The position numbers were made by a program, and so were the translations under genes. This document shows, one piece after another, positions 20,598-42,093 of a stretch of 48,076 nt of DNA. Numbering within the stretch: position 1 is the stretch's first letter; each line of letters opens with the position of its first letter. Where the stretch lies: NCBI GenBank assembly GCA_025370845.1, contig JAMXFF010000037.1:24761-72836 (forward strand), given 5' to 3'. This stretch comes from Laspinema palackyanum D2a (GTDB taxonomy: Bacteria > Cyanobacteriota > Cyanobacteriia > Cyanobacteriales > Laspinemataceae). The notes below the pieces were generated by a model that saw only the letters and a program-made list of their open reading frames with translations, was not told where the DNA came from and did no database searches.

Positions 20598-22430
20598 TTA
20601 ATGGTCACCAATTCCCCAAATTTTAATCTTACCCCCATCAAACCCCGTGACAATTTTATCTCCGTTGGGACCAATGGCGCTGCATAACATATACCCCTCA
20701 TTGCCGTGAGTGGTTTTCAACGGAGGAATGGTATGAATGGGTCTAGCTTGCTCTAAATCCCAGATTTTAATCGTCCCATCATCGGAACTGCTGGCCATCA
20801 TATTATTCTGGGAAATAGAAACCGAAGTCACCCCACTGGAATGATCCGCCAGGGTGTACAAAAGTTTGCCAGTTCCGACATTCCAGAGGCGCAGGGTCGT
20901 ATCATTACTTCCACTGGCCAAGATATTGCCATCAGGACTAATAGCAACGGAACAGACGGATCCGGTATGTTCCGTGAGGGTATGGAGTAATTCTCCGGTG
21001 AGTAAGTTTCTAATTTTAATCATATTATCATTTCCCCCACTAATCAGGGTATTTCCTTGGGGACTAATCGAGATAGACCGAACCGTACTCGTATGTCCGT
21101 AAAATGTCCCAATTAATTCCTGGGTATCCAAATTCCATAAGGCAATGGTTTTATCTGCACCGCCACTCACTAGCATATTTCCTTTGGGATGAAATGCCAA
21201 GGCATTCACCCATCCTGTATGTCCTCGCAGGGTGAAGCGGAGTTTGCCGGTTTTGAGTTCCCAAAGTTTGATGGTATTATCTCCACTGCCACTGGCGAAG
21301 AGTTCGCCATTGGGGGAAATGGCCAAGGCGATCGCAGAACCCGTGTGACCGATTCCGGTTTTAATCAGATTTCCGGTGTTGATTTCCCAAATTTTAACGG
21401 TTTTATCATTACTGCCACTGACCAAAAAATTTCCATTCGGGTCAAGTGCCACCGTTCGCACTGCTTTTTGATGTTCTACGACTTGTAGGCAGCGGAAAAA
21501 CCGATAGGGTTGATAATCTTCTATGGCCATTTTCGCTTTGGGTAAATGACTGCGTTTGAGCAACGCATAAGCCCATCGCTGGACGGCTTCCGATGGATCG
21601 GCCAAGGAGGAAATCAATAAATTAACCATTTCTGCTTCAAATTCAACCGCCTCATTGGCTCGACTTTTAGCTTCAAGCTCAGCATTTAATTCTTTGATTT
21701 TTTCTTGGAAACTGGCGGATTTTTTTTGTTCAGAAATCAGTTTATTTGTTAAATTTAATTGTTCCGCTTGAGATTCGGTTAACTGATTTGTTAATTCCTG
21801 AATTTTGAGAGAGGATTCTGCTTCTGCGGGGGGTTTCAATCGGGCTATTTCTTGATGCAGGTTGGCCAACAGGTCTTTTAAATCCTGGGGTTCTATCATA
21901 GGATTACTGCTCGATTGAAGGGGATGAAGGGATTGAAAATTTTGTGAGCGATCGCCATTGCTTTGCTGTAACTCAGAGAACACTTGATCCAGTCGAGACT
22001 CTAACTCTTGGTCCCGAGCTAGGCGCTCTTGCCGCTCATGGTTAATCTCCAGTTCAAGGCGAGCGCGCTGTTGGCGGACTTCCTCACTCTCAAATAACAG
22101 GCGATCGACCTGTTCCTGGGCATTAATTCGTTCTTTGCCTGCCCGATCTAACCGTTCCCAAACTTTAGATAACTGTCCTTCAATGTCGGCTAATTTCCAC
22201 TCTAACTGTTTAACGGCTGAGTCGCGTTCCTGAACCAGAGCCCAGACGTTTCGCGCCCAAAATAGTTTGGTCCCTTCCCCGGGAGAATTCGCTTCGGGCA
22301 ACTCCCCCGGCATTAACGGAGGATCCAACGTTACATCCCACCCACAGGTTGGGCAGAGTGTCTGTTCCCCCTGCACATATTCCGTGCCACACACCGGACA
22401 TTTAAACGCACCCAAGCTCACCCTATTCAT
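20598..22430 (-). CDS. zinc-ribbon / coiled-coil / WD40 repeat protein
   Basis: 610 residues. It has an N-terminal zinc ribbon with CPVC (C11, C14) and CPTC (C26, C29) plus GWDV; a shared helical motif (FWARNVWALVQERD, about 57-70); and a long coiled coil (about 60-265, rich in Glu/Gln/Lys/Leu). A HEAT-like segment at 268-315 contains SEAVQRWAYALL and YQPYRFFRC, and seven WD repeats (316-610) follow, the last diverged (FDGGKIKIWG). The SEAVQR...PYRFF segment recurs in the WD40 protein at 45677-47830. It starts after AGAAGG. It lies 63 nt upstream of its zinc-ribbon paralogue on the same strand, a probable operon. No catalytic domain is seen; probably a scaffold. Confidence 0.85.
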   Translation of the reverse strand: MNRVSLGAFKCPVCGTEYVQGEQTLCPTCGWDVTLDPPLMPGELPEANSPGEGTKLFWARNVWALVQERDSAVKQLEWKLADIEGQLSKVWERLDRAGKERINAQEQVDRLLFESEEVRQQRARLELEINHERQERLARDQELESRLDQVFSELQQSNGDRSQNFQSLHPLQSSSNPMIEPQDLKDLLANLHQEIARLKPPAEAESSLKIQELTNQLTESQAEQLNLTNKLISEQKKSASFQEKIKELNAELEAKSRANEAVEFEAEMVNLLISSLADPSEAVQRWAYALLKRSHLPKAKMAIEDYQPYRFFRCLQVVEHQKAVRTVALDPNGNFLVSGSNDKTVKIWEINTGNLIKTGIGHTGSAIALAISPNGELFASGSGDNTIKLWELKTGKLRFTLRGHTGWVNALAFHPKGNMLVSGGADKTIALWNLDTQELIGTFYGHTSTVRSISISPQGNTLISGGNDNMIKIRNLLTGELLHTLTEHTGSVCSVAISPDGNILASGSNDTTLRLWNVGTGKLLYTLADHSSGVTSVSISQNNMMASSSDDGTIKIWDLEQARPIHTIPPLKTTHGNEGYMLCSAIGPNGDKIVTGFDGGKIKIWGIGDH

Positions 22431-22664: not shown

Positions 22665-25600
22665 TCATCGCTGCAACTCATCTTGTAAAGCGGGTTTGAG
22701 GCGTTCATACTCCAAGTAAATCGATCGCACCAGTGCCAATGCCTCTGGGGGTAAGAGGGTTCCCTCTTCTGAACTCGTTCGGGCCAGCTTTTCTAGCTCT
22801 TTGCTCAATTGCGCCAAGGGTTTGGCGCCGAGGGTGGCACTGGTGGATTTTAAAGTGTGAGCCGAACGATGAAGGGTGGGAGCATCTTGTTGTTGCACAG
22901 AAGTTTCCAGGGTTTCTAACAGATTGGGTAAATCGTTTAGATAACTCTCAACCACTTCAATAAACGCTTCTGGCTCATCTTCCCCCACCATTTCTCGTAA
23001 GTTTTGCAATGCTTTGGCATCGATGGGAGGTTCAGGGCTGAAGTCGGAGAATGAAGAATTAGACATGGGAGTTGGGGGAGATGGGGGAGATGGGGGAGTT
23101 GGGGGAGTTGGGGGAGTTGGGGGGGATGGGGGAGTTGGGGGAGAGACAGACTGCGGTGGTTCGGATACATCTGATGTCTCTGCCAGTGGTAAGGGTTCAG
23201 AATAGAGATGACATCCAGCTAGTGCTTGGGCGAGGGCTTCCATGCGAATGGGTTTGCTAATGTAATCATCCATTCCCGCTTGCAGACAGATTTCCCGATC
23301 GCCTTGCATAGCATTAGCTGTCATGGCAATAATCCAAGGGCGTCCCGTGGGGGAAACATCCCGGCGTTCACTCCATTCTAAGCAGATGCGCCTTGTGGCT
23401 TCTAAACCATCCATTTCAGGCATTTGCACATCCATGAGGATGACATCGTAGCTTTGACGATTTAGGGAGGCGATCGCCTCCAATCCGTTACTGGCGACAT
23501 CGGCACGATATCCCATCCGTTCTAAAATCCGCAATGCCACCTTTTGGTTCACCACATTATCTTCCGCTAACAGAATCTTCAAAGGGCGATCGCCCTTGAG
23601 AGGAGTAGACTGGCGCGGCAAACCAGGAGCACGGCGGTCCTTTGAATTTTTCCGGTTCGATTGCCGAGAGAAAATTCCAATCAAGATATCAAACAGTTGG
23701 GATTGTTTGATCGGCTTACTCAAAAACGCGGCAAAATCGATTCCGGAAACTTCCCGAGAAACGGGTTGCCAACCCAGAGAGGTCAACATCACCAAAGGTA
23801 AGCGATCGCCATCGGGGAGTTGACGAATCGCCCCGGCTAGGGCCAACCCATCCATGTCCGGCATCTGCATATCCAAAATAGCCAGGTCAAAACGGGTCTG
23901 GGAATTTTGCAACCCCGCCAACGCTTCCGGGCCCGAAGCTGCTGCTGTGGTTAGCATTCCCCAGGATTGGGCTTGGCGGGTGAGAATCAGACGATTGGTG
24001 GCATTATCATCCACAATCAGTAAATGTTTGCCGGTGAGTTGAGGCACTTCATCTTCTGGACTCACCGAGGCCAACTGCGAGGTAGCTGCGGCCTGAATGG
24101 TAAAATGGAACGTCGAACCGACCCCAATCTGACTTTCCACCCACATCGTACCGCCCATCAGTTCGCTCAGGCGCTTGGCGATCGCCAAACCCAAACCTGT
24201 ACCCCCATATTTGCGGGTGGTGGAAGAATCCACCTGAGAAAACGACTTAAACAGGCGATCCATGCGATCGCGGGGAATCCCCACCCCGGTATCTTTCACC
24301 GAAAAATGAATTTGATAAATCCCCCCCTGAGTTCCCGCTTCTATCCGGTTCCCCAACTGGGAATCCTGCACTAACGTCGCATTTACCGAGACAATCGTCT
24401 CTCCTTCCTGGGTAAATTTGACCGCATTACTGAGTAGATTCACCAAGATTTGGCGCAAGCGGGTGACATCGCCGATGATGGCTTCGGGGGTTTGGGGACC
24501 GAACAAATAGGCCAGTTCGAGTTGTTTTTCTGCGGCTTTAGAGGCTACCAAGTCCAGACATTCCTCGATGCAGGTTCGCAGATTAAACGGATGTTCCTCC
24601 AAATCCATCTTCCCGGACTCAATTTTGGAGAAGTCGAGGATGTCGTTAATAATCGTCAGCAAGCCATCGCCACTGGTGCGAATCGTTTCCACAAAGTCGC
24701 GCTGATCGGCATTCAAGGGGGTATCCAACAGCAACCCAGTCATGCCAATCACCGCATTCATGGGAGTGCGGATTTCGTGGCTCATGGTAGCGAGGAATTC
24801 ACTCTTGGCTCGGTTAGCCGCTTCTGCGGCTTCCTGTGCTTGCAACGCGGCTTGGCTTTTGAAAGCCACTTCCTGACGGGCGAGGGTTTCCTGTTCCAGG
24901 AGTCGGGCTTGAGCGAGGGCAATCCCCACTTGTTCGGCGACGGCTTCACACAACTCAATTTCCTCGCGAGTCCAGCGTCGGAAGCGATCGCACTGATGCA
25001 TCCCGATCACCCCATTCGGTACTCCCTGATAGGAGGTCCGCACCGCTAACATGGACTTGACTCCAATCTGCCGACACATCGCCTCCGCTCCTTTGAGCAG
25101 GGGTTCCTTATAGACATCCGGGGACACCAGCACCGTATCGAAGGCTACCAGTTGTTCCGCATGAGGATTCCCCACTACTGGCACCTCAAAGTTCATCATG
25201 GATTGAGCTCCAGGCTCTAAATACTCCGCAACTAAGGGCATTCTCGGTGGGTCCGAGGGAATGTAACTATGAATCAAACAGCGATTCACCCCAAATGCCT
25301 GACCAATTTGAGAGGCAGTGGTCTGAAAAATCTTTTGAGTATCTAAACTTTGGCGGATTTCCCGCGTTATTTGAGACAGGAGCAAACTGCGATGGAGTTG
25401 CTGTTGCAGGGCAATTTGAGCGTGATTCCGCTCGATCTCACCGCCGATCCATTGGGCCATCAGTTTCAACAAATTTTGATCCACTGATTTAAAGGGTTGA
25501 GTCCGACCCTGGAAAGAGGAAAAGCTCAGACAACCGTAAACCAGCCCCGAGACAATCACTCGCACTCCCAGATAGGCTTCTAATCCCCGCATTTTGTAGG

Positions 25601-28600
25601 CCGGATGCGATCGCCACTCGGAGTCACTGGCGCAGGGGATGCAGACGGGCTCCGGTTCCCGGACGGCAACGGAGCAATAGGTGAGTTCTAATTTAAAGGC
25701 ATCCCCTTGGGTCAAGGGAATTAAACTATTAGCGGGTAATTGCAGGGCGATCGCCTCGATGGTAGAAGCACGCTCAATCCCGTCTCGACTCTCCCTCGGG
25801 CTGTCTAAACGGCCTACCATGCCAATATTCAAGCCAAACCGCAGACATCCCATCTCTAACATCCGCGATAGTCTGGTGTCAAAGTCCAGACTGCGATCGG
25901 CGGTCACGGAATAGAGTGCCCGAATCGCTGCCTCACTCTCTTTCAAGGAGGCAATTAATTGAGTCTTTTCCCACTCGGCCTGTTTGCGGAAGGTAATATC
26001 ATTGAGGGTGCCACTAATCCCGGTCAACTCTCCGGCCTGATTGCGACTTCCTCGGGCAAAGACCTCAATCCAACGGTAGCTTCCCGCTTTGGTGCGATAC
26101 CGCATCTCATCTTCACAGTTCTGCTGTTCTCCAGAAATGAGTGCTTCTAAATATTGGGAAAAGGGCTGGACGTCCGGCTCATAAATGTAATTTAACCAGG
26201 ACGTGCCAAGGGTCTGGTCAATCTCAAATCCGGTAATTTCCTCCCAAGCGGGATTGAGAAAGGTGAAGGAACCCTGAGCATCGGTCTGGAAAATTACCTC
26301 TTTAATGCTATCCACCACGGAGCGATATTTTTCCTGGCTTTGGCGCAGGGCTTCTGCGGCTTCAAACCGTTCGGTAATATCCTGAACCATGCCTAGGGCA
26401 AATTTCGGATTGCCATTGGCATCCCGAATGATGGAAACGGTTACATCAACCCAGATCCGCGATCCGTCCTTGCAAATATAACGCTTCTGCATTTCGTAGC
26501 TGGGGCGTTCTGCGGCTACCACTGCCTGAAATAGGGGGAGTTCTTTCTGTAAATCTTCAGGATCCGTGAAGTCAGAAAAACTCAGGGTAGAGAGTTCGGT
26601 TTCAGAGTAGCCCAGCATCTTCTCAAAGGCGGGATTACACTTGAGAATCCGTCCCTCATCCAAGGTCCCCAAGGCGATGCCAATGGCGGCCCCTTCAAAG
26701 ACGATCCGGAGTTGAGCGGCGCTTTCGGCAAGGGCTTCTTCTGCTTCCTTGCGTTGGGTGATGTCATGGGCGACAGCGTAGAGTAATCCTTGTTCGCGAA
26801 AGGGGGTGGTGTTCCAGCGCACCCAACGATAGGAGCCATCTTTGCAGCGATAGCGGTTTTCAAAACCCAGGGTGTCTAGGTTTAAGTCACTCAGTTTCGC
26901 GGTTTCCGATAGGGTGGCGGCGCGATCGTCCGGATGGACGAATTCGATAAAGGGTTGGGAAAACAGTTCTTCGTCGGTGTAACCGAGGATTTTTCCCCAG
27001 GCGGGATTGAGGCGTTTGAAATATCCATCGAATCCGGCGATACAGAGCATATCCAGGGAGAGGGTGAAGAACCGATCGCGTTCCTGTTCGGCGTTTTTGC
27101 GATCGGTGATATCCTGGGCTACTACCATCACGGAGTCGATTTGGCTGGTTTCGGTTCGCACGGGTACGGTGTGGGTCAGGTACCACCGCCCATTCCAGGG
27201 CATTTCCTGGATGACTGAGGTTGAGTTACCCTCGATCGCCTCAATACTCTGTTCTAAAAGGGTTCGCGCTTCTGATGAAAATACCTCACTGAGGGTTTTA
27301 CCTTCTACGAAGGCTTTAGAAAGACCGGCAGGCTCTAAACCGGCCCCTTCTGCGAGTAAAAACCGTTGATTTCGGTCTAAAAGGAAGACGACTCCCTGGG
27401 GAAAGTTACGGGTCAGGGTGCGATAGAGTTCTTCTCGTTGACGGAGGGCTTCTTGCGATCGCACCTGTTCGGTCCGGTTTGTCGCTACCCCAATCACCCC
27501 GCTCACGGTGCCGCTTTCATCCCAGATTGGGGTTAATTTATGTTCATAAATTAATCCATTGCAATTGCCAATCCAGTTTTCTTCTTTCCCGTTAAACACC
27601 TGATGGATTTGCTGGAGGATACTCGGCTGCTGGGCGTAACAATCGAAAATGGAGGTCCCGATTACCTTGTCGGAATTCAACCCTAAGGATGAGAGTTCTT
27701 TTCCTTCCAATAGGGTAATGATGCCATGACGATCGGTGGCGTAGAGGAGCACGGGAGACTGTTTGACGAGGGTTTTTAAGTGTGCTGTACTCTCTCGCAG
27801 TGCTGCTTCTATCCGTTGGCGTTGGTTGATTTCTCCTTGTAATTTCTGGTTAGCGGTTTGCCATTGTCCGGTTCTTTCGGCTACTCGCCCTTCTAGTTCT
27901 AAGTTGAGCGATCGCAGGGCGATTTCTTGCTGTTTGCGATCGGTAATATCCTCGATCATCAACAGGGTTAAGCTCGGTTTCCCCTCGAATGCTGTAATCT
28001 GGGAAACTATCATCTGAGCAGTCCGCATTTCTCCATCTTTCCGGCGGTAATTCTGCTCTTGTCCATCGGTACTCTTGAAAGATGTCTCTTGTCCGATGGG
28101 GATTTCCTCCTCCAGTTGCATCAGTTGGGGCTCTGAGCTTAAGTCGCTCCAGGTGATGGCATTCAGTTCCTCAGCGCTATATCCGAGCATCTGTTGCAGC
28201 GCTAGATTGGGTTGGGTGATGTTGCCTTCGGGGGTCACTAGGGCAATTCCCAGGGGCGATCGCTCAATGACGGTTCTCAACAGCACTTCGTTTTCCCGCA
28301 ATGCTGTTTCCACCTGCTGCCGTTCGGTAATTTCTGTCTGCAGTTGCTGGTTGGCTTGCTCTAACTGCTCTGGGGACGCCAATGCCAAGGCTTTGGGAAT
28401 CAGGGGGACCAGTAAAAGCGCCGTGGCGAGGGAGACGGAGGCGGTGATCGCTTTGATTCCCCCGGATAGCCAATAGTCCGGATGCCACAAGGTCCAGATT
28501 TCCATTAAATGGCTGGTCCCACAGGAGATGATAAATGCCCCAAATAATACAAAAATCCAACTAAAGGGCAGGTCTTTACGATTGCGGATAAAATATAACA

Positions 28601-28778
28601 GGGTTAGGGGAATGGCAAAATAGGAAAGGGCAATCAGGGCATCGGAACTAACATGAAGCCCCACTAGCCCGGGCTGCCACAAGTAACAATGCCCGTGAGG
28701 GATAAATGAGAGTAATCTCTCCCCCGACAACTTGGCGATCGCTGGGTTTGTGAACAATCCTAAAACTTGGTCCTGCAT
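22665..28778 (-). CDS. hybrid histidine kinase with ethylene-receptor-like membrane domain
   Basis: A 2037-residue phosphorelay protein, starting after GGGGG 4 nt upstream. Residues about 38-130 form three membrane helices that match plant ETR1: [20 protein letters not shown] and [18 protein letters not shown]. Asp46, Cys86 and His90 correspond to ETR1 Asp25 and the copper ligands Cys65 and His69. Then follow six PAS domains (about 160-285, 328-438, 448-560, 568-678, 685-805, 812-932), two GAF domains (about 955-1115 and 1135-1295), HisKA (H1334 in [12 protein letters not shown]), HATPase ([21 protein letters not shown]), receiver 1 (D1636), receiver 2 (D1783), a proline-rich linker (1877-1905) and HPt (H1974). 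Ethylene or a related small ligand is a plausible input; this is inferred from family knowledge. No output regulator is adjacent. Confidence 0.92.
23064..23147 (-). repeat. G-rich repeat encoding the proline-rich kinase linker
   Basis: Tandem GGGGGAGTTGGGGGAGATGG-type units encode the [15 protein letters not shown] linker between the second receiver and HPt domains. The same base pattern occurs in non-coding DNA at about 14630-14676 and 15001-15020 and, inverted, at 43770-43800. Confidence 0.85.
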
Positions 28779-30984: not shown

Positions 30985-33162
30985 TCACCCTTGTTGCAGG
31001 GCCATCTCCATCAAAATATTCTGCGAACTTTGGGCGATCGCCTCATTCTTTCCCCTCCGTTGCAGATAACTCCCATCCGGTTGCAACTCCCACGCTTGGC
31101 GATTATCCGCTAACATAATCCCCAGAATTTCCTGGAGGTCTTTTGCCAAATCTGGGTCTTCTACCGGGGTGATCGCCTCCACCCGTCGATTCAGGTTCCG
31201 AGGCATCCAATCCGCACTGCCAATGTACACCTCTTCCGCCCCATCATTATAAAAATAAAAAATCCGGGAATGCTCTAAAAACCGCCCCACAATACTCAAC
31301 ACCCGGATATTTTCACTCACATTCGCCACCCCCGGACGCAAACAGCAAATCCCCCGCACAATTAAATCAATTTGCACCCCCGCCCTCGATGCTTCATAGA
31401 GCTTAATAATCATTTTTGGGTCTACCAAGGCATTCATTTTTAACACAATTCGCCCCGGTTTTCCCTGTTTGGCATTGTCAATTTCCCGCTGGACTAAGGC
31501 GGTCATCCGTTCCCTCATGTTCACCGGCGCAACTAACAAACTGCGATAGGACCGCTGGCGGGAATACCCAGTCAAATAATTAAACAAATCTGTTAAATCC
31601 GCCCCGATATCTTCCCGGCAGGTAATTAACCCCAAATCCGTATAAAGTCGCGCCGTCTTGGGATTATAATTCCCCGTCCCAATATGAGCATAGCGCCGAA
31701 TACCATCGGCTTCCCGACGCACCACCATCCCGACTTTAGTATGGGTTTTGAGTCCTACTAACCCATAGACGACATGAACGCCCACTTTTTCTAACTTCCG
31801 CGCCCAAGAGATATTATTTTCCTCATCAAAGCGCGCTTTCAGTTCCACTAATGCTGCCACCTGTTTGCCATTTTCTGCTGCGGCAATTAAGGCATTCACA
31901 ATGGGCGAATCCCCCGAGGTTCGGTAGAGGGTCATTTTAATCGCTAATACCGCTGGATCATAAGCTGCCTGGGTAATAAATCGCTGGACTGTTGCGCTAA
32001 AGGAATGATAGGGATGATGGATGAGCAAATCCCGCGATCGGATCAAAGCAAATAGATCCTCCGTCTCTTCCATATCCTCCAGATTCAGTTCTGAGGGCAG
32101 TTCTCCCAGGCGACGGAAAGAGGCGGGAGTCACGGGATTCCACACTGGATATTTAAGTTCGGGAAGGGGTAAATCCATCAACCCCATTAAGTCTACTAAC
32201 CCCAGCAATCCCTCCACTTCATACACTTCATGAGGAACTAAACCCAATTCTTCCCGCAGCATTTCACGCACGGCTGAGGGAATATCCGATTGCACTTCCA
32301 TTCGCACCACGGAACCGCCGACTCGTCGCTTGCGAATTTCTTGTTCGATCGCCAGGAGTAAATCATCGGCTTCATCTTCTTCTAGGGCAATATCCGCGTT
32401 CCGAGTCACCCGAAATGGATGATATTCTAAAATATTCATCCCCGGAAATAGAAACTCTAAATTATGGGCAATGACCTGTTCTAATGGCGTAAAGGTCCAA
32501 GTTTTTCCCGGTCCTTCCCCGTGACTGCTGCTGGCGTCTCGGGGTGCTTCAGGAATCGGCACAAATCGGGGTAAAACTTTGGGGACTTTCACCCGGGCAA
32601 AAAATTCTTCGTCTGTTTCTGGATCTTTAATCACCACAGCCAGATTTAAACTGCGGTTAGAAATATAGGGAAAGGGATGTCCCGGATCGACGGCTAAGGG
32701 GGTGAGAACGGGGAAAATTTCTTCTTCAAAATACTGTTGCAGATAGGTCCGCTGTTCTTGGTTGAGATCCATATAATCGAGGATCTGGATGCCATAAGCA
32801 ATCAGTTGGGGACGCAGGAGTTTTTCAAAATGCCGATGTTGTTCGGCAACCATTGGATGCAGGCGATCGCCCACTGCATCCAATTGTTGTTGGGGGGTGC
32901 GTCCATCAGGAGTCCGGGAAGACACTCCTGCTTCCACCTGCTGTTTCAGTCCGGCAATTCGCACCATGAAATATTCATCTAAGTTAGCACTGAAAATTGC
33001 TAAAAATTTCAGCCGTTCTAACAACGGAGTTCGCGGGTCAAAGGCTTCCTGTAAAACTCGGTAATTAAATTCAACCCAACTTATTTCTCGGTTGAAGTAG
33101 TATTGCTGATCTTTTAAGTTAATTTCCGGGGTCGTTTCCTGGGGTTTCTTCGTTGTTGTCAT
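30985..33162 (-). CDS. ppk1: polyphosphate kinase 1
   Basis: A 725-residue enzyme, normal PPK1 length, that reversibly makes polyphosphate from ATP. It starts with the N domain (YYFNREISWVEFNYRVLQEA about 21-40), then FLAIFSANLDEYFMVRIAGL, the substrate-channel region and the two phospholipase-D-like C domains. The histidines of KTHTK (H474) and YAHIGTGNYN (H493) are 19 residues apart, as are the E. coli autophosphorylated H435 and second catalytic H454. IHHPYHSF and LIVRGICCLRPGV are also typical. It is transcribed alone; no ppx is adjacent. Confidence 0.97.
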   Translation of the reverse strand: MTTTKKPQETTPEINLKDQQYYFNREISWVEFNYRVLQEAFDPRTPLLERLKFLAIFSANLDEYFMVRIAGLKQQVEAGVSSRTPDGRTPQQQLDAVGDRLHPMVAEQHRHFEKLLRPQLIAYGIQILDYMDLNQEQRTYLQQYFEEEIFPVLTPLAVDPGHPFPYISNRSLNLAVVIKDPETDEEFFARVKVPKVLPRFVPIPEAPRDASSSHGEGPGKTWTFTPLEQVIAHNLEFLFPGMNILEYHPFRVTRNADIALEEDEADDLLLAIEQEIRKRRVGGSVVRMEVQSDIPSAVREMLREELGLVPHEVYEVEGLLGLVDLMGLMDLPLPELKYPVWNPVTPASFRRLGELPSELNLEDMEETEDLFALIRSRDLLIHHPYHSFSATVQRFITQAAYDPAVLAIKMTLYRTSGDSPIVNALIAAAENGKQVAALVELKARFDEENNISWARKLEKVGVHVVYGLVGLKTHTKVGMVVRREADGIRRYAHIGTGNYNPKTARLYTDLGLITCREDIGADLTDLFNYLTGYSRQRSYRSLLVAPVNMRERMTALVQREIDNAKQGKPGRIVLKMNALVDPKMIIKLYEASRAGVQIDLIVRGICCLRPGVANVSENIRVLSIVGRFLEHSRIFYFYNDGAEEVYIGSADWMPRNLNRRVEAITPVEDPDLAKDLQEILGIMLADNRQAWELQPDGSYLQRRGKNEAIAQSSQNILMEMALQQG

Positions 33163-33416
33163 AATTTTGATCTCATGGAGTCATAAAAGGAGTTCAGTGG
33201 TAAATACCCTCTCTAGTCCGACCCTGACTTCAACCGCATCGGGGTGGAGAGAATGAAGTCGGATGGATCCGTTGCCACCGGAACAGACCCAGGAGTGGAA
33301 AATCCTGGCAAAATGCCTGGTGTTGGAGGTGGGCTTTTCCTGGAGGTGATGGGGATGGGTAGATATATTGTGGCAAGGATGAGGTTATGATGCCACGGAA
33401 TGGGCGAATTCACGAC

Positions 33417-33446
33417 AAAAAACAGTCACGATCGCTTCGTGACTGT
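33417..33446 (-). terminator. sodB terminator
   Basis: A perfect 10-bp stem ACAGTCACGA / TCGTGACTGT with a 5-nt loop, followed on the minus strand by TTTTT, lies 65 nt downstream of the sodB stop. Confidence 0.9.
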
Positions 33447-33462
33447 CTAGGATGAACCCTGA

Positions 33463-33482
33463 GTAAGGGCGATCGCCCTTAC
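33463..33482. repeat. 20-bp perfect palindrome around HIP1
   Basis: GTAAGGGCGATCGCCCTTAC is self-complementary. It lies between the sodB stop and its terminator, so it would also form a hairpin in the 3' end of the sodB transcript. Confidence 0.85.
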
Positions 33483-33511
33483 GGAGTGACTCAATCTGGT
33501 TGAACCGGGGA

Positions 33512-34114
33512 TTAAGCGGCTTTTTTCATTTGTTCGGCAACAAAATCCCAGTTGATTAAGCTGCTGATGAAGGTTTCAATGTAATCAGGACGCTTGTTTT
33601 GGTAGTCCAGGTAATAGGCGTGCTCCCAAACATCAATGGTCAACAGGGGAGTCAGTCCCATTGCTACAGGATTTTCGGCATTGCTGGTTTTGACCACTTT
33701 CAGGGTGCTTTTATCCAACACTAACCAGGCCCAACCGCTACCAAACTGGGTGGCTGCTGCTGCTTTGAATTCTTCTTTAAATTTATCAAAACTGCCAAAG
33801 TCCGAAGCAATCTTGTCGGCGAGTTCTCCACTGGGTTGACCACCGCCACTGGGTTTGATGCAGTTCCAGTAGAAGGTGTGGTTCCAAGCTTGGGCCGCAT
33901 TATTGAAGATTCCGGCCTTAGAGGCGTCATTGTAGGTGGCTTTGATCACCTCTTCAATGGATTTGCTCTCCATGTCGGTGCCTTTCACCATGTTGTTGTA
34001 GTTGTTGACGTAGGCCGCATGGTGTTTGTCGTGGTGGAACTCCAGGGTGCTCTTGGACACATGGGGCTCAAGGGCAGTGTAGTCAAACGGCAAAGGGGGC
34101 AGTTCGTAAGTCAT
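33512..34114 (-). CDS. sodB: iron superoxide dismutase
   Basis: A 200-residue cytoplasmic enzyme that dismutates superoxide to oxygen and hydrogen peroxide. Metal ligands are His27 (FHHDKHHAAYVNNYN), His79 (AAQAWNHTFYWNC), Asp161 and His165 (DVWEHAYYLDYQN). Gln75 in AAQxWNHTFYW and GSGWAWLV mark the Fe rather than the Mn subgroup. There is no signal peptide. A good ribosome-binding site (GAGAGGAT) precedes ATG, and a strong terminator follows. Its position beside flv1/flv3 gives an oxygen-defence neighbourhood, although repeats separate them and cotranscription is unlikely. Confidence 0.97.
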   Translation of the reverse strand: MTYELPPLPFDYTALEPHVSKSTLEFHHDKHHAAYVNNYNNMVKGTDMESKSIEEVIKATYNDASKAGIFNNAAQAWNHTFYWNCIKPSGGGQPSGELADKIASDFGSFDKFKEEFKAAAATQFGSGWAWLVLDKSTLKVVKTSNAENPVAMGLTPLLTIDVWEHAYYLDYQNKRPDYIETFISSLINWDFVAEQMKKAA

Positions 34115-34776: not shown

Positions 34777-36510
34777 TTAATAATAACTCCCGGTTTTCCG
34801 ATAATGAACTGCCGTTACCCCTTCGGTATCCAGCACTTTGCCATTTTCCACCGTGGCATAAACCACCCAATGATCTCCGCATTCCATGCGGTTTTGCACC
34901 ACACATTCCAGATAAGCGAGTCCATCTTTTAAAATTGGACAACCGTTCGCCGCCTCAATGGTTTCTAACCCCACAAATCGGTCTTCCCCGGGAGCAAATC
35001 GCTTCATGAAATGCTTGCGTAATTGTTTCCCTTCTGCTAAAATATTTAGCACAAATTTATCCCCGGTATGGGTTAGAGATTCCAATGCCCGGTCTTTGGC
35101 GACGGCAACGGTTAAACCGGGAGGATTAAATGAACCTTGGGATACCCAAGAGGCTAACATTCCACTAATCACATCCCCTCGTTTGGCGGAAACAACGCAT
35201 AAAGACCCAACAATTCGACCGACGGCTTGGGCAGTGCGATCGCTGGTTGCACCTGTATTCAAAGAAGATTTTGCGGTCCGTCGTTTCTGCGATCGCTTCA
35301 AATTTTGGGCGAAATCCAGGGCAGATTCTTCACAAGCTTGCAAGGTCACATCGGTGGGTTTAAACTTCACCCGAATCGGGTCAAAGCCAAACTGATATCC
35401 CGCATCGGTTAACTTACTTTCCAACAGGTCGATCGCTTCTCCACTCCACCCAAATGACCCAAATACTCCGGCCAATTTACTGGTAGAGGCGGTTTTCAAA
35501 ATAATCCCCAAAGCGGTTTGAATTTGGGTCGGTGCATGACCTCCCAAGGTGGGAGACCCGATAATAAATCCATCGCATTTTTCCACAGCAGCCTGAATTT
35601 CTGAGGGTTCGGCTTGTTCACAATTCAGAAATTCCACTGCTATTCCCGCTTTCGTTAACCCTCGGGCGATCGCCTGTCCCACGATGGCGGTATTCCCATA
35701 AGCTGAAGCATAAACTAAAGCCACGGTCAAATCCTGAGACTTCTGCAAATTACTCCAGGACCGATACAATTCCGTCAGTTCTTTCTTCCCATACAAAACT
35801 AACGGTCCATGACCCGTAGCATACAATTTCACCTCGGGTAATTCAGCTATTTTATCCAACGCCGAGAGCACCTGTTTCGCCTGGGGTGCGTGTAAGCAAT
35901 CATAATAAAACCGGCGGTCTTCACTATAAATTGCCCAACCTTCATCAAAAATTTGGTCTCCGCAAACATGAGCCCCAAAGAATTTATCGGTGAACAAAAT
36001 TTTAGTTTTGGGGTCGTAAGTTAACAATTCATCCGGCCATTTTGGCGTCGGAGTGGCAATGAATTGTAACTGATGTCCCTGACCTAAATCTAAGGTATCT
36101 TCCCCCCGGATGACCAAGATATTTAAGTCTTCGGTTTCAAAGAACTGGCGTAAGGCGATCGCCCCGGGATTGGTACAAACAAATTGCAGTTGCGGCGCCA
36201 GATTCAATAGCGCTTTAATCGTCTCCCCGCGATTGGCATTAAAATGTCCCAAAATGACATAATCAATCTGGGAAAGGTCAATCCGCGCTTGCAGCGACTC
36301 TAAATAATTTTTAGTAAAGGATTCCCCGGGTGGGTCAATCAGGGCAATTTTATCCCCTTGAATTAAAAACGAGTTGGCGGTGGTTCCTTTAGCTAGGGAA
36401 TATTCCACCTCAAATTTCAGGCGGTCCCAAGTGCGCGATCGCATCACTCGGGTCTCTTCGGCAATCAGAACCACCTGAACATCACGTTGTTTAGTTGTTG
36501 TTTCTATCAT
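34777..36510 (-). CDS. flv1: flavodiiron protein Flv1 (non-canonical diiron site)
   Basis: A 577-residue protein with a metallo-beta-lactamase-like domain (about 30-255), a flavodoxin domain (about 260-400, VALVYASAYGNTA) and the cyanobacterial C-terminal flavin reductase domain (about 430-577, GRIVGSLCVVSAKRGDV). Diiron ligands are largely replaced: the HxExDH site reads HFNANR (89-94), the next His is Lys157 (TPKWPD) and the bridging Asp is Lys176; only H89 and H234 remain. This substitution pattern is typical of Flv1, the partner of canonical Flv3. Together they reduce O2 to water with electrons from photosystem I (Mehler-like reaction). flv3 lies directly upstream on the same strand, 383 bp away. 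Confidence 0.92.
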   Translation of the reverse strand: MIETTTKQRDVQVVLIAEETRVMRSRTWDRLKFEVEYSLAKGTTANSFLIQGDKIALIDPPGESFTKNYLESLQARIDLSQIDYVILGHFNANRGETIKALLNLAPQLQFVCTNPGAIALRQFFETEDLNILVIRGEDTLDLGQGHQLQFIATPTPKWPDELLTYDPKTKILFTDKFFGAHVCGDQIFDEGWAIYSEDRRFYYDCLHAPQAKQVLSALDKIAELPEVKLYATGHGPLVLYGKKELTELYRSWSNLQKSQDLTVALVYASAYGNTAIVGQAIARGLTKAGIAVEFLNCEQAEPSEIQAAVEKCDGFIIGSPTLGGHAPTQIQTALGIILKTASTSKLAGVFGSFGWSGEAIDLLESKLTDAGYQFGFDPIRVKFKPTDVTLQACEESALDFAQNLKRSQKRRTAKSSLNTGATSDRTAQAVGRIVGSLCVVSAKRGDVISGMLASWVSQGSFNPPGLTVAVAKDRALESLTHTGDKFVLNILAEGKQLRKHFMKRFAPGEDRFVGLETIEAANGCPILKDGLAYLECVVQNRMECGDHWVVYATVENGKVLDTEGVTAVHYRKTGSYY

Positions 36511-36893: not shown

Positions 36894-38621
36894 CTAATAA
36901 TGATTGCCGACTTTGCGATGGTGGATTGCCGGTAAGGCATCGGGATTGGAGACTCGACCATTGTCTACTTGGCTATACACGATCCAGTGATCGGGACATT
37001 CCATGCGACTGATGACTTGGCATTCCAGATAGGCGAGGGCTTCACTCAGGATCGGACTGCCGTTGTTTGCCGCTTGGGTTTTGATTCCAGCAAAGCGATC
37101 GGCCCCCGGGGGGAAGCGTTTGAGGAAGTGTCGCATCAGTCCTTGATAGTTGTCTTCATCCAGGACATTGAGCACGAAGGTATCGCCGACGTGCATCAGG
37201 GCTTCGATCGCCCGGTCTTTGGCCACGGCAATGGTAATCCCCAGAGGTTCAAAACTGGCTTGAGTTACCCAGGAGGCTAACATGGCACTACTCACATCCC
37301 CTTTCTGGGCGGTGATGATATACAATCCCCCGCTAATCCGCCCCAAGGCTTTATCCAGTTCACTATCTAAGGATTTCATCTGTTTGATGGCTTTTTTCAG
37401 GGTCAGCATCTGTCCCATGTCGGTTCCAGCTTCATCGCACAGTTGATAGGTGGCTTCTGTGGGGTTTTCCTTGACAATAATGTTGGGAAATCCCTGTTTT
37501 AGCCCGAGTTCTTTAAATTTAACGGCGAGGGGATAGATGGATTGGTCGTTACCCCCACCGGATTCAAAGAGTCCGATGGTCTGTTTGTTATTGGCGGCGA
37601 CTAAAATGGTGCCGATCGCCGCTTCTGCATTCTCTGAACCCGGTCCCGTTAATGGCGGTGCACCGAGGGCGATTCCCGAGGCGATACTCACCAGTTCCCG
37701 CACTTCCTGGGGTTCTGCCGATCGCAAATCCATCATTTCTACGTTAACGCCGGTTTTGGTAATCCCGTGGGCCACCGCTTGGGAGAGGCGATCGCTATAG
37801 CCGTAATCGGAAAAATAAAACACGGCAACGGTGGTGTCTGCCTTGGCTTGTTCCTGACTCCACTGTTTGTATCGTCCGGTGAGTTCCCCGACATTATACC
37901 GCAGCAGGGGTCCGTGGCCGGTGGCGATCGTGCTAATTTTTTCCACTTCCGGCATCCGCTTCATAGCACTCAGGACCGATCGCGCATTGGGGGCCATCAA
38001 ACATTCATAATAAAAGTGATAATCCGCTTCAATATCACTTAAATTTTCATCGAAGGTTTTATCGGAACAATAATGCATTCCAAAGGCATCGCAGGTAAAT
38101 AAAATCTGCGTTTTGGCATCGTAGCTAAAAATTGTATCCGGCCAGTGCAAATTCGGGGCATTGAAAAATTCTAGGACGTGACCATTGCCTAAATCCAGGG
38201 TATCCCCATTTTTGACAATTAACCGTTTAAAGGGTTGATGAACTAAGTCTTCTAAAAACTGAATGGCAACTTTGGCCCCGACAATGGTAATCTCTGGGGC
38301 AAGTGCTAAGACATCTTTAACTAATCCGCTATGATCCGGTTCCGTATGACTGATGATTAGGTAATCGATTTGGGTTGGGTCGATTTCCTGGCAAAGGGTC
38401 GGCAAATAGGATTCGCGGAATTTGGCATGGGAGGTATCCACCAAGGCAGTCTGACTCCCCCGAATCAGAAAGGAATTATAAGTGGTCCCGTTTTGCAGGC
38501 CAAATTCGATATCAAACCGATCGCGGTCCCAATCCAAACAGCGAATTGCTGTGGTTTCGGTGGCGATTTCCCCCGTTGCGATCGTCAGTCTCGGTTGTAC
38601 TCTGTCGGTGACGGCTACCAT
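36894..38621 (-). CDS. flv3: flavodiiron protein Flv3 (canonical diiron site)
   Basis: 575 residues with the same three domains as its neighbour. The diiron ligands are intact: H92, E94, D96 and H97 in SHTEPDHSGL, H159 in NLHWPD, D178 in LFTCDAFG and H236 in ATGHGPLL. The flavodoxin domain contains VAVFYFSDYGYSD, and the C-terminal flavin reductase domain GGLYIITAQKGDVSSAMLAS. AGGAGG 7 nt before ATG sets the start. Flv1/Flv3 hetero-oligomers act as an electron safety valve after photosystem I under fluctuating light. The absence of an sll0218-like gene between the pair argues against Flv2/Flv4. Confidence 0.92.
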   Translation of the reverse strand: MVAVTDRVQPRLTIATGEIATETTAIRCLDWDRDRFDIEFGLQNGTTYNSFLIRGSQTALVDTSHAKFRESYLPTLCQEIDPTQIDYLIISHTEPDHSGLVKDVLALAPEITIVGAKVAIQFLEDLVHQPFKRLIVKNGDTLDLGNGHVLEFFNAPNLHWPDTIFSYDAKTQILFTCDAFGMHYCSDKTFDENLSDIEADYHFYYECLMAPNARSVLSAMKRMPEVEKISTIATGHGPLLRYNVGELTGRYKQWSQEQAKADTTVAVFYFSDYGYSDRLSQAVAHGITKTGVNVEMMDLRSAEPQEVRELVSIASGIALGAPPLTGPGSENAEAAIGTILVAANNKQTIGLFESGGGNDQSIYPLAVKFKELGLKQGFPNIIVKENPTEATYQLCDEAGTDMGQMLTLKKAIKQMKSLDSELDKALGRISGGLYIITAQKGDVSSAMLASWVTQASFEPLGITIAVAKDRAIEALMHVGDTFVLNVLDEDNYQGLMRHFLKRFPPGADRFAGIKTQAANNGSPILSEALAYLECQVISRMECPDHWIVYSQVDNGRVSNPDALPAIHHRKVGNHY

Positions 38622-38941: not shown

Positions 38942-40993
38942 TTATTTCTCCTCACCCATTTTGATGGGCAGTTCTACAATAAACTCCGTCCCTTGTCCTT
39001 CGCTGATGCAGCGAATCTTCCCGTTATGACCTTTGACGATAATTTGATAACACAGGGACAGACCTAACCCCGTGCCTTTCCCCACGGGTTTTGTAGTAAA
39101 AAAGGGATTAAAAATTTGGTCTTGAATCTCCGGAGAGATTCCCGGACCATTATCTTTGATGGAAATGCTCACCCAATTGGGATAGGGTTCGCAAATTGAG
39201 AGGGTCAGTTCACCCTCGGTATCTGGATTGGAGGCGATCGCATCTAAAGCATTATCAATTAAGTTAAAAAACACTTGATTAATCTGGGCCGGATGACATT
39301 CAACTCGGGCTTTAGCATGATAATGTTTATGAATTTTTAACTCCGGGGAAAATCGATGTTGCAACATCGATAAACTGCTTTCCAGTCCTTCACTCAGATT
39401 CACAGGTTTAGCCCCGGCTTCATCTAAACGGGAAAAATTCCGCAAGTTTTGGACAATTTTGCGAATGCGATCGCTTCCTTGCTGCATGGAACCAATCAGG
39501 TTCGGGGAATCAGACCGGATATAATCCAAATCGACTTCTTCATTCAACTCTTCGATTTCTGGAGGAATTTCTGAGGCCGCCAATTCGTAAATATCAACCG
39601 CTTTTTTCAAAGCTTCCACATATTCCTGGACGTAGAATAAATTAGCATGAACAAAATTATTAGCATTATTAATTTCATGGGCAACTCCAGCCACCAACTG
39701 TCCCAAACTTGAAAGTTTTTCGCTTTGGATGAGTTGTTGCTGGGTTGCTTTTAGTTCTTGGATAGTGGCGGTTAATTGTTCAGCCTGGGCTTGATATTGG
39801 GCCGCAGAATCCTGAACTTTTTGGTATAGTTCTGCTTGTGAGATAGCAATTGCCATCTGATGACCTAACTGTTCTAGCAGTTCGATTTCTCCTTGGGTCC
39901 AATGGCGGGTTGAATGACATTCATGAGCAATCAACAACCCCCAGAGATGATCCGGCATGGCAATGGGAACGATTAAATTGGCCTTGACTTGCAATTTGTC
40001 TAAAAACTCTGCATGACAAGTATTTAATCCGGCCTTATGAATATCATCGATCGCCCGAACTCGCCCTTGTTTATAGAGTTCGGCATGGTCAGTTTTAAAA
40101 CAATTATCTGCCACAATCCCGCCCAAAATCGGCGGCCAAGGTACACGAAGGTCTTCAACTACGATTTCACCGGCCCAATTTTCCAGGAAGCGGTAAATCA
40201 CCACCCGGTCACTATTCAGGAGTTCCCGGACTCCGCGAACTGCGGTTTTTAAAACCGTATTCAGGTCCAATGTACTGCGAATTTGGTTGGTAATGAGGCG
40301 CAGTAAAGACTCCCTTTGTGCGGCAGCGCGGGTGGCACTGTACAATTGGGCTTGGTTAATGGCGATCGCCAGTTGGGAGGCTACTCCTTCTAAGAGGTCT
40401 TGTTCCCATTGGGACCACTCCCGTTCGCGATCGCACTGATGCAGTCCGATAATCCCATTCACTTTCCCCTGGTAGGAAGTGGCGATCGCCAGCATGGACT
40501 TAATTCCAAGTCCCTGTACCAGTTGTAAGGTTTCTTCCCCCAAACCCGGAAACTCTAAAAACCGCGTCACCGCTAGGGGTTCCGCCTGAGACATCAACTG
40601 ATGCAAGTGGGGATTATCCGCCAACGGCACTCGGGATCCTAGTTGGCTGGTGTAATCATCGGTTTTATACTCTCCTCGGGTGATTAGCCAGTCTCCCGCT
40701 TCCGATTCGTTGACTAAAATGCTGACTCGACTACAGTTGAAGGTTTCCCCTAACAAAAGACAGGCGGATTGGAGCACTTCATCTAAATCCAGGGTACTGC
40801 GAACCTGATGATTGATCTCGTTGAGCAATCGCGATCGCTCTACCTCTCTGTGGAGTTCCCGAGGATGTAAATTTTGTATCTCCATACGTTCTTTGTAAGT
40901 CTCAGTCGCCTCCTGAATTGAGCGACTGGCTTGCGGGAGTGATAAATCAGGCTTCGGCCATGTACAGTAGGGGGCTTGTTTTTTTATATACAT
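38942..40993 (-). CDS. GAF/cyanobacteriochrome sensor histidine kinase
   Basis: 683 residues, no membrane helix. GAF1 spans about 55-218. GAF2, about 228-390, is of the phytochrome/cyanobacteriochrome type (VVIYRFLENWAGEIVVEDL, LWGLLIAHEC). GAF2 contains DNCF with Cys298 and TCHAEFL with Cys326-His327, exactly 28 residues apart. This is the layout of DXCF cyanobacteriochromes, in which the CH cysteine holds the bilin and the DXCF cysteine forms a second, light-sensitive bond, giving blue/violet-to-green or teal photocycles. The kinase part has HisKA with His439 (GVAHEINNANNFVHA), HATPase N box (NLIDNALDAI), G1 (DNGPGIS) and G2 (GKGTGLGLS). No receiver is fused or adjacent. The first ATG is used; M37 is an alternative start. 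Confidence 0.88.
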   Translation of the reverse strand: MYIKKQAPYCTWPKPDLSLPQASRSIQEATETYKERMEIQNLHPRELHREVERSRLLNEINHQVRSTLDLDEVLQSACLLLGETFNCSRVSILVNESEAGDWLITRGEYKTDDYTSQLGSRVPLADNPHLHQLMSQAEPLAVTRFLEFPGLGEETLQLVQGLGIKSMLAIATSYQGKVNGIIGLHQCDREREWSQWEQDLLEGVASQLAIAINQAQLYSATRAAAQRESLLRLITNQIRSTLDLNTVLKTAVRGVRELLNSDRVVIYRFLENWAGEIVVEDLRVPWPPILGGIVADNCFKTDHAELYKQGRVRAIDDIHKAGLNTCHAEFLDKLQVKANLIVPIAMPDHLWGLLIAHECHSTRHWTQGEIELLEQLGHQMAIAISQAELYQKVQDSAAQYQAQAEQLTATIQELKATQQQLIQSEKLSSLGQLVAGVAHEINNANNFVHANLFYVQEYVEALKKAVDIYELAASEIPPEIEELNEEVDLDYIRSDSPNLIGSMQQGSDRIRKIVQNLRNFSRLDEAGAKPVNLSEGLESSLSMLQHRFSPELKIHKHYHAKARVECHPAQINQVFFNLIDNALDAIASNPDTEGELTLSICEPYPNWVSISIKDNGPGISPEIQDQIFNPFFTTKPVGKGTGLGLSLCYQIIVKGHNGKIRCISEGQGTEFIVELPIKMGEEK

Positions 40994-41229: not shown

Positions 41230-42093
41230 ATGAGCAAGACTGCAACCGAATTGGGAAGTGACCAGGGCAACTGGCTGGCCTTAAGCATCGGCAATTCCAG
41301 ACTCCACTGGGCCTGGTTTCAGGGAGAGCTCTGCAAACAGGTGTGGCACAGCCCTCATTTAGACCCTGCTGCTAGGGAAAAGCTCATTCATGCCTGGAAC
41401 CGGGGGGAGTTGTGGGATGGGGGTCTGGAGTATCCCGGTCCCCTGGGGGATGAGGCGATCGCCCCTAACCCGCCCCTGTGGATCGCCTCCGTCGTTCCCC
41501 AACAGTTAGCGCTTTGGCAGTCTTACCGGAGATTAAATATTATTACCCTCGCGGATTTGCCCCTGTTGGGACTTTATCCCACCTTGGGAATCGATCGCGC
41601 CTTGGCCTTAGTAGGGGCCGCAACCGAATCGGGTTGGCCGGTTTTGGTCGTGGATGCGGGAACGGCCCTGACTTTGACCGGGGCAGATCCCGAGGGCCGA
41701 TTAGTGGGAGGGGCAATTCTCCCGGGGTTTGGGCTCCAACTGCAATCGTTAACGGAAAAAACCGCCGCATTACCTGCGGTAACATTTCCAGGGACCTTAC
41801 CCCCACGCTGGGCTTTAAATACCCCCGAGGCGATCGCTTCTGGGGTAGTCTATGGGATTGGAGCTGGGGTGCGAGACTTTATCAGCGACTGGTGGCAGCA
41901 CTTTCCCACCTCCCCTGTGGTGATCACCGGGGGAGGGGGGGAAATGCTGCTCAGATATCTCCAGGAGACAGCGCCAGAAATAGCAAAACAGGCGATCGCC
42001 ATGCCGGATCTAATTTTTTCCGGGATTTGCTGCATCAAACAACAGCAGTCCGGGGAAAGTTTACCCGGTCCTCGGTTCACGCCTCTATATTAG
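41230..42093 (+). CDS. coaX: type III pantothenate kinase
   Basis: 287 residues. It phosphorylates pantothenate in the first step of coenzyme A synthesis; type III enzymes are not feedback-inhibited by CoA. ASKHA-fold motifs are visible: SIGNSRLHWAW (19-29, in place of the usual DxGNT, so the first Asp is Ser), YPTLGIDRALALVGA (116-130), VVDAGTALTLTGAD (141-154), GGAILPGF, and the C-terminal VVITGGGGEMLL. The length is a little above the usual 250-260 because of an N-terminal extension. Its 3' end overlaps the convergent hydrolase gene by 17 bp. Confidence 0.88.
   Translation: MSKTATELGSDQGNWLALSIGNSRLHWAWFQGELCKQVWHSPHLDPAAREKLIHAWNRGELWDGGLEYPGPLGDEAIAPNPPLWIASVVPQQLALWQSYRRLNIITLADLPLLGLYPTLGIDRALALVGAATESGWPVLVVDAGTALTLTGADPEGRLVGGAILPGFGLQLQSLTEKTAALPAVTFPGTLPPRWALNTPEAIASGVVYGIGAGVRDFISDWWQHFPTSPVVITGGGGEMLLRYLQETAPEIAKQAIAMPDLIFSGICCIKQQQSGESLPGPRFTPLY

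Follow-up and report, generated by a model that had tools for sequence, protein, structure and literature searches.

A two-GAF histidine kinase of Laspinema palackyanum D2a is very likely a DXCF-type cyanobacteriochrome

Introduction

The genome of the cyanobacterium Laspinema palackyanum D2a encodes a histidine kinase of 683 aa with two GAF domains, which lies between a pantothenate kinase gene and two genes for flavodiiron proteins. The locus raises the question of whether the second GAF domain (GAF2) makes this kinase a light sensor and, if so, of what its first GAF domain (GAF1) and its gene neighbours say about the way in which it is governed and the process that it serves. GAF domains of the DXCF type carry phycocyanobilin on a canonical cysteine, where the pigment is typically converted to phycoviolobilin, and a second cysteine is linked to the bilin at C10 while the domain is in its blue dark state and is freed in the photoproduct (PMC11284453, PMC6628166 and PMC6955287, each in the section concerned). 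A typical DXCF domain has a blue-absorbing dark state and a green-absorbing photoproduct, the photoproducts of the group as a whole ranging from teal to orange (PMC6628166, same section). The DNA analysed here, referred to throughout as the window, is the whole stretch of 48,076 nucleotides from positions 24,761 to 72,836 of contig JAMXFF010000037.1, and coordinates without a prefix refer to it.

Results

Domain organization of the kinase

The kinase gene and the parts of its product that are considered below are located as follows.

38942..40993, minus strand: ORF of the GAF1-GAF2-histidine kinase, 683 aa, with Pfam matches to GAF (two stretches) and HATPase_c
40310..40864, minus strand: GAF1, residues 44-228, with a cyanobacteriochrome-like fold and without either bilin cysteine (alignment, model, Foldseek)
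39809..40357, minus strand: GAF2 as modelled, residues 213-395, predicted DXCF cyanobacteriochrome domain (Pfam GAF at residues 243-384)
40097..40108, minus strand: D296-N-C298-F motif with the second cysteine, predicted to be linked to bilin C10 in the dark state (alignment)
40013..40018, minus strand: C326-H327, the canonical bilin cysteine and the histidine that follows it (alignment)
39677..39679, minus strand: His439, presumed phosphoacceptor, in V-A-H-E-I-N-N (the same in 33/33 rows)
38963..39292, minus strand: HATPase_c, residues 568-677, with N and G boxes intact (Pfam; alignment)

Among the genes immediately next to the kinase in the window, Pfam identified no response regulator. Within the HATPase_c domain, residues N581, D614, G616, G618, G642 and G644 are identical across the 33 rows of the alignment of homologues described below and, judged by its boxes, the kinase core is intact. 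Pfam HisKA gave no match at E 0.001; the dimerization domain is presumed from the sequence motif around His439 (H-E-I-N-N), the histidine being invariant. The NCBIfam histidine kinase model NF038348 spans residues 398-678 but scores 225 bits against a cut-off of 450, and other NCBIfam kinase models likewise matched the ORF only below their cut-offs.

Motif, homology and predicted fold of GAF2

The preliminary description of this DNA had placed DNCF (Cys298) and Cys326-His327 in GAF2, 28 residues apart as in the photoreceptor TePixJ, and the alignment of the two proteins confirms this reading. It has no gap over its 149 residues, of which 58 (39%) are identical, and D296, C298, F299, C326 and H327 fall on TePixJ D492, C494, F495, C522 and H523, given that the Asp is residue 492; the TePixJ numbers 522 and 523 are derived from the alignment and the preliminary description. 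The corresponding codons lie at 40108-40106 (D296), 40102-40100 (C298), 40099-40097 (F299), 40018-40016 (C326) and 40015-40013 (H327), and the interval originally given for the motif, 40016-40108, exactly covers the stretch from the Asp codon of DXCF (40108) to the end of the codon for Cys326 (40016). In TePixJ the bilin is bonded at C10 to Cys494, with D492 and Q526 near the chromophore (PMC6955287, in the passage on this site).

A sequence search of the PDB showed full-length homology of GAF2 to GAF domains of cyanobacteriochromes; the four top-scoring distinct sequences were 6oap (E 4.6e-40), 8k9o, 6bhn and TePixJ 3vv4 (E 2.3e-34). An AlphaFold2 model of GAF2 built from 33 rows had a mean pLDDT of 88.8 and, when compared with the PDB by Foldseek, the best 50 of its 412 matches (E <= 0.001) were all cyanobacteriochromes, phytochromes or fluorescent proteins made from them, with TePixJ (3vv4, 4fof, 4glq) at ranks 8-10 and 14. 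The red/green XRG lineage is marked by the Trp of WxDxxL (PMC11284453, as stated in its section on that lineage). At this place, two residues before D296 in the alignment to TePixJ, GAF2 has Val294 and therefore appears not to belong to the XRG lineage.

Conservation of the kinase and related domains in the genome

When the whole kinase was used as the query, matches were obtained in 9/14 genomes of the family (E <= 1e-170), in 22/194 of an order sample (E <= 1e-160) and in 14/388 of a class sample; these samples overlap, and 33 different genomes matched in all. Kinases of 90-93% identity occur in Laspinema sp. D2d, L. olomoucense D3b, Oscillatoria sp. HE19RPO, Oscillatoria sp. S11.Bin022 and Phormidium pseudopriestleyi FRX01. 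The 33-row alignment was thus gathered via whole-protein similarity and not via the motif, and D296, C298, F299, C326 and H327 are the same in all 33 rows, two of which are doubtful orthologues (the matched part starts only at residue 210 for L068 and at residue 185 for L069). Phe330 is invariant over the same rows. As the homology extends over the whole length of the domain, and as the motif is invariant in rows picked without regard to it, the motif is not a chance occurrence. Three more distant kinases from Calothrix/Rivularia (37-38% identity), which are excluded from the 33/33 count, retain D-x-C-F and thereby both cysteines together with the one at the canonical place, and Tyr replaces His327. 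The first GAF domain of L069 (genome G287) also has D-N-C-F and C-H, so that this protein seemingly carries two DXCF domains in tandem.

A profile of GAF2 gave 30 matches in the genome of strain D2a at E <= 1e-15, some of them fragments. An alignment of 43 rows, fragments and repeated sightings included, contained seven different GAF domains, GAF2 included, with D-x-C-F and either C-H or C-Y in the right columns. The six others are on other contigs or in other ORFs, in open frames of 167 to 1862 aa, and are found at the following places.

C46:82481, C63:93304, C11:114495, C71:27702, C36:80250 (with C-Y) and C71:14233: six other DXCF domains

The last of these (L113, G000:C71:14233-14700) is a DXCF GAF domain with D-Q-C-F and C-H whose open frame is only 167 aa, apparently without an output domain. 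The whole-protein search returned no second full-length match to the kinase in its own genome, and by this search none of the six other domains is part of an ORF with the GAF1-GAF2-kinase architecture. One match to bilin reductase (PF05996) was found there, and NCBIfam identified it, above cut-off, as phycocyanobilin:ferredoxin oxidoreductase (PcyA). Since this phycocyanobilin synthase is encoded in the genome, phycocyanobilin is the expected pigment.

GAF1

GAF1 had been described at the outset as lacking the chromophore residues, and this holds: D-N-P-H and E-T occupy the two motif places, and neither bilin cysteine is present. The GAF1 model (pLDDT 91.2) was built from 31 rows, which leave out L068 and L069 and have a mean column identity of 69%. 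Its best structure matches in Foldseek were cyanobacteriochromes and phytochromes at 13-27% identity, and the best 50 also included 3trc and 3p01, GAF domains that are not known to bind a bilin. Bilin binding by GAF1 was set aside because neither cysteine is there, though the fold is of that type; judging from its sequence, GAF1 is a relative that lost, or never had, the chromophore cysteines. Cys78 and Cys187, which are away from the bilin positions, are the same in 31/31 rows, including a row at 33% identity.

Elsewhere in the window (22665-28778, minus strand) a hybrid kinase of 2037 aa is encoded, with an ETR1_N ethylene-receptor-like N-terminus, PAS and GAF domains, two receivers and Hpt. 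A stretch of this hybrid kinase, at about 24870-25433, matches GAF1 at 34%, which suggests that GAF1 belongs to a wider, non-bilin type of GAF domain.

The conservation of GAF1 is the basis of the strongest alternative to a kinase switched through GAF2, namely that control of the kinase lies chiefly with GAF1, or that both signals are combined, with GAF2 still binding bilin, as in other two-sensor kinases. The two invariant cysteines speak for this alternative; GAF1 has no known ligand and no bilin cysteine, and we consider it unlikely, if the most serious of the competing readings.

Gene neighbourhood of the kinase

The kinase gene is flanked by the following genes.

41230..42093, plus strand: coaX, type III pantothenate kinase, divergent neighbour upstream of the kinase (NCBIfam pantothenate kinase above cut-off)
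36894..38621, minus strand: flavodiiron protein, Flv3-like, 575 aa (Pfam; PDB search)
34777..36510, minus strand: flavodiiron protein, Flv1-like, 577 aa (Pfam; PDB search)

The two flavodiiron genes lie downstream on the same strand as the kinase and are the only full-length ones found in the genome. PDB entry 6h0c, which we take to be Flv1 of Synechocystis, was matched by the second at E 7.9e-170 and by the first at E 1.9e-88; from these sequence matches the first is read as Flv3 and the second as Flv1. The end of the kinase gene is 320 bases from flv3. When the block was scanned for promoters and terminators, it showed 16 promoter-like sites, where 10.0 (sd 3.5) are expected, and 10 terminator-like sites, where the expected number is 10.0 (sd 2.7). 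Genes for an Fe/Mn superoxide dismutase and a polyphosphate kinase follow flv1 (30985-34114, minus strand), an arrangement that holds in those Laspinema-like loci that are long enough and was not seen in the examined stretches of other genera. The window also encodes two WD40-rich proteins (PF00400; 45677-47830, plus strand, 14 stretches, and 20598-22430, minus strand, six stretches) and a protein of 914 aa with RTX-type calcium-binding nonapeptide repeats (PF00353, five stretches; 5693-8437, minus strand).

In all 24 kinase-bearing genomes of the order, that of the window included, coaX adjoins the kinase; within the stretches examined it does so in none of the nine genomes outside the order. 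In 16/33 genomes, belonging to families f1, f2, f6 and f20, the kinase shares a strand with flv3 and lies within 8 kb of it. The kinase is not near flv3 in 13/33 (four of the order, G071, G085, G121 and G192, and all nine from elsewhere), and contig ends hide the arrangement in the other four (G007, G101, G155 and G058); in G058, groES/groEL come after the kinase on one contig and an apparent end of groEL, recognized by eye, comes before flv3 on another. Where the gap is wider, the genes that follow the kinase vary. By eye, they include groES/groEL (L044:6130-7224), very long repeat proteins (L048:6882-12221 and L049:1820-7510) and a protein of 966 aa with a receiver-like start followed by PAS, GGDEF and EAL-like stretches (L043:6504-9404); small ORFs are present in L045 and L046. 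A response regulator was sought between kinase and flv3 in these loci, and the receiver-like start in L043 was what it yielded, the other loci holding unrelated genes.

As a control, we examined 25 genomes from the order that lacked the kinase at the search thresholds used, drawn from the listed rows and not at random. Both flv3 and coaX were obtained from 23 of them, and in 12/23 the two genes adjoin each other directly and divergently, their matches separated by <420 bases; one gene separates them in two more (G001 and G030). Outside the order, where the flv3 regions of eight of the nine kinase-bearing genomes were examined (G233 excepted), coaX-flv3 is intact with the kinase elsewhere in three (L084-L086, from G213, G246 and G219), and coaX was absent from beside flv3 in the other five (L087-L091). 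The 12 kinase-less genomes and L084-L086 thus show a gene order that does not depend on the kinase; since coaX and flv3 adjoin each other without it, their block is probably older than the place of the kinase there, and the kinase looks to have been inserted into it. In a tree of 36 kinases, which covers the family of the 683-aa kinase and three distant ones only, the 24 coaX-linked kinases lie together on one side of a branch whose support is only 68/96; the tree fits one insertion event without showing it. In G001, a genome from the same family as the window, another sensor kinase (PAS, GAF and HisKA; L094:3307-6444) occupies the space between coaX and flv3; this suggests that the gap takes up genes or else has a use for sensors.

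Discussion

The protein is very likely a DXCF-type cyanobacteriochrome histidine kinase. The dual-cysteine class proposed in the preliminary description is borne out by homology, by both cysteines in register, by conservation, by the predicted fold, by the absence of the XRG Trp and by the PcyA gene. By analogy with the family, from which we infer the chromophore, the adduct chemistry, the colours, the switching of the kinase and the partner, GAF2 would take up phycocyanobilin, attached via Cys326 and very probably isomerized to phycoviolobilin within the domain. In the dark (15Z) state Cys298 would additionally bond to the bilin, at C10, to give a blue-absorbing form; blue light would flip the C15=C16 bond and Cys298 would be released, yielding a form that absorbs at longer wavelength, most likely green and possibly anywhere from teal to orange. 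The connecting helix would carry the change to the His439/HATPase core, and this core would then phosphorylate a response regulator encoded elsewhere. Taken as one explanation, a DXCF histidine kinase with bilin adduct, blue-light switching and kinase output is, in our estimation, highly probable. The preliminary description had expected blue or violet absorption; blue fits typical DXCF domains, and for violet we have no pointer.

A further proposal, which would add to the DXCF explanation and not replace it, is that the kinase, settled between coaX and flv3-flv1 in several families, senses blue light and controls flv3-flv1, setting this O2-reducing electron valve by light colour. If this is true, photoprotective oxygen reduction would respond directly to light quality, with light colour steering the main electron valve of photosystem I. 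What favours the proposal is the closeness of kinase and flv3 on one strand in nearly half of the genomes, across families; yet such a position can be inherited from an insertion, the kinase is away from flv3 in many genomes, and the other sensor kinase in the gap of G001 may be read for or against. In Synechocystis, moreover, flavodiiron genes were unchanged in any light condition tested, with no response to light colour (PMC7496141, in the portion dealing with these genes). In the literature searched, we found no joint treatment of flv3, pantothenate kinase and flavodiiron. As an additional reading, the functional linkage lost most of its force after the control on kinase-less and other-order genomes, and we regard it as improbable; the case illustrates that flv3-flv1, as a conserved neighbour, may hint at a function for which a control on genomes without the kinase gives no support.

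That GAF2 is no longer a photoreceptor and has kept its cysteines as a relic is very improbable: many GAF domains in the genome are without one or both cysteines, but nothing direct favours this reading, and a relic should have lost some of the five residues that are the same in every aligned row from several families.

The DXCF reading of GAF2 adds to a known class of photoreceptors an easily tested kinase that is conserved over several cyanobacterial families. In comparison with the blue/green DXCF domain of TePixJ from Thermosynechococcus (3vv4, 4fof, 4glq, 2m7u, 6p58), GAF2 shares the D-x-C-F and C-H places and the fold, whereas TePixJ is, by its PDB names, a methyl-accepting chemotaxis protein and the 683-aa protein a histidine kinase. 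Phe330 of GAF2 stands at the place of TePixJ Gln526, near the moving chromophore, and the colour may therefore differ from that of TePixJ. The best match in both sequence and fold (ranks 1-6) is a 'dual sensor histidine kinase' (6oap, 6oaq, 6ob8), which is also a two-sensor histidine kinase. We take this protein to be PPHK, whose other sensor is presumably a receiver domain and not a GAF domain. It has D-Q-Y-F in place of D-N-C-F and so, unlike GAF2, has no second cysteine. Set beside these systems, the kinase of L. palackyanum is an ordinary, well-conserved representative of the known DXCF photoreceptor type.
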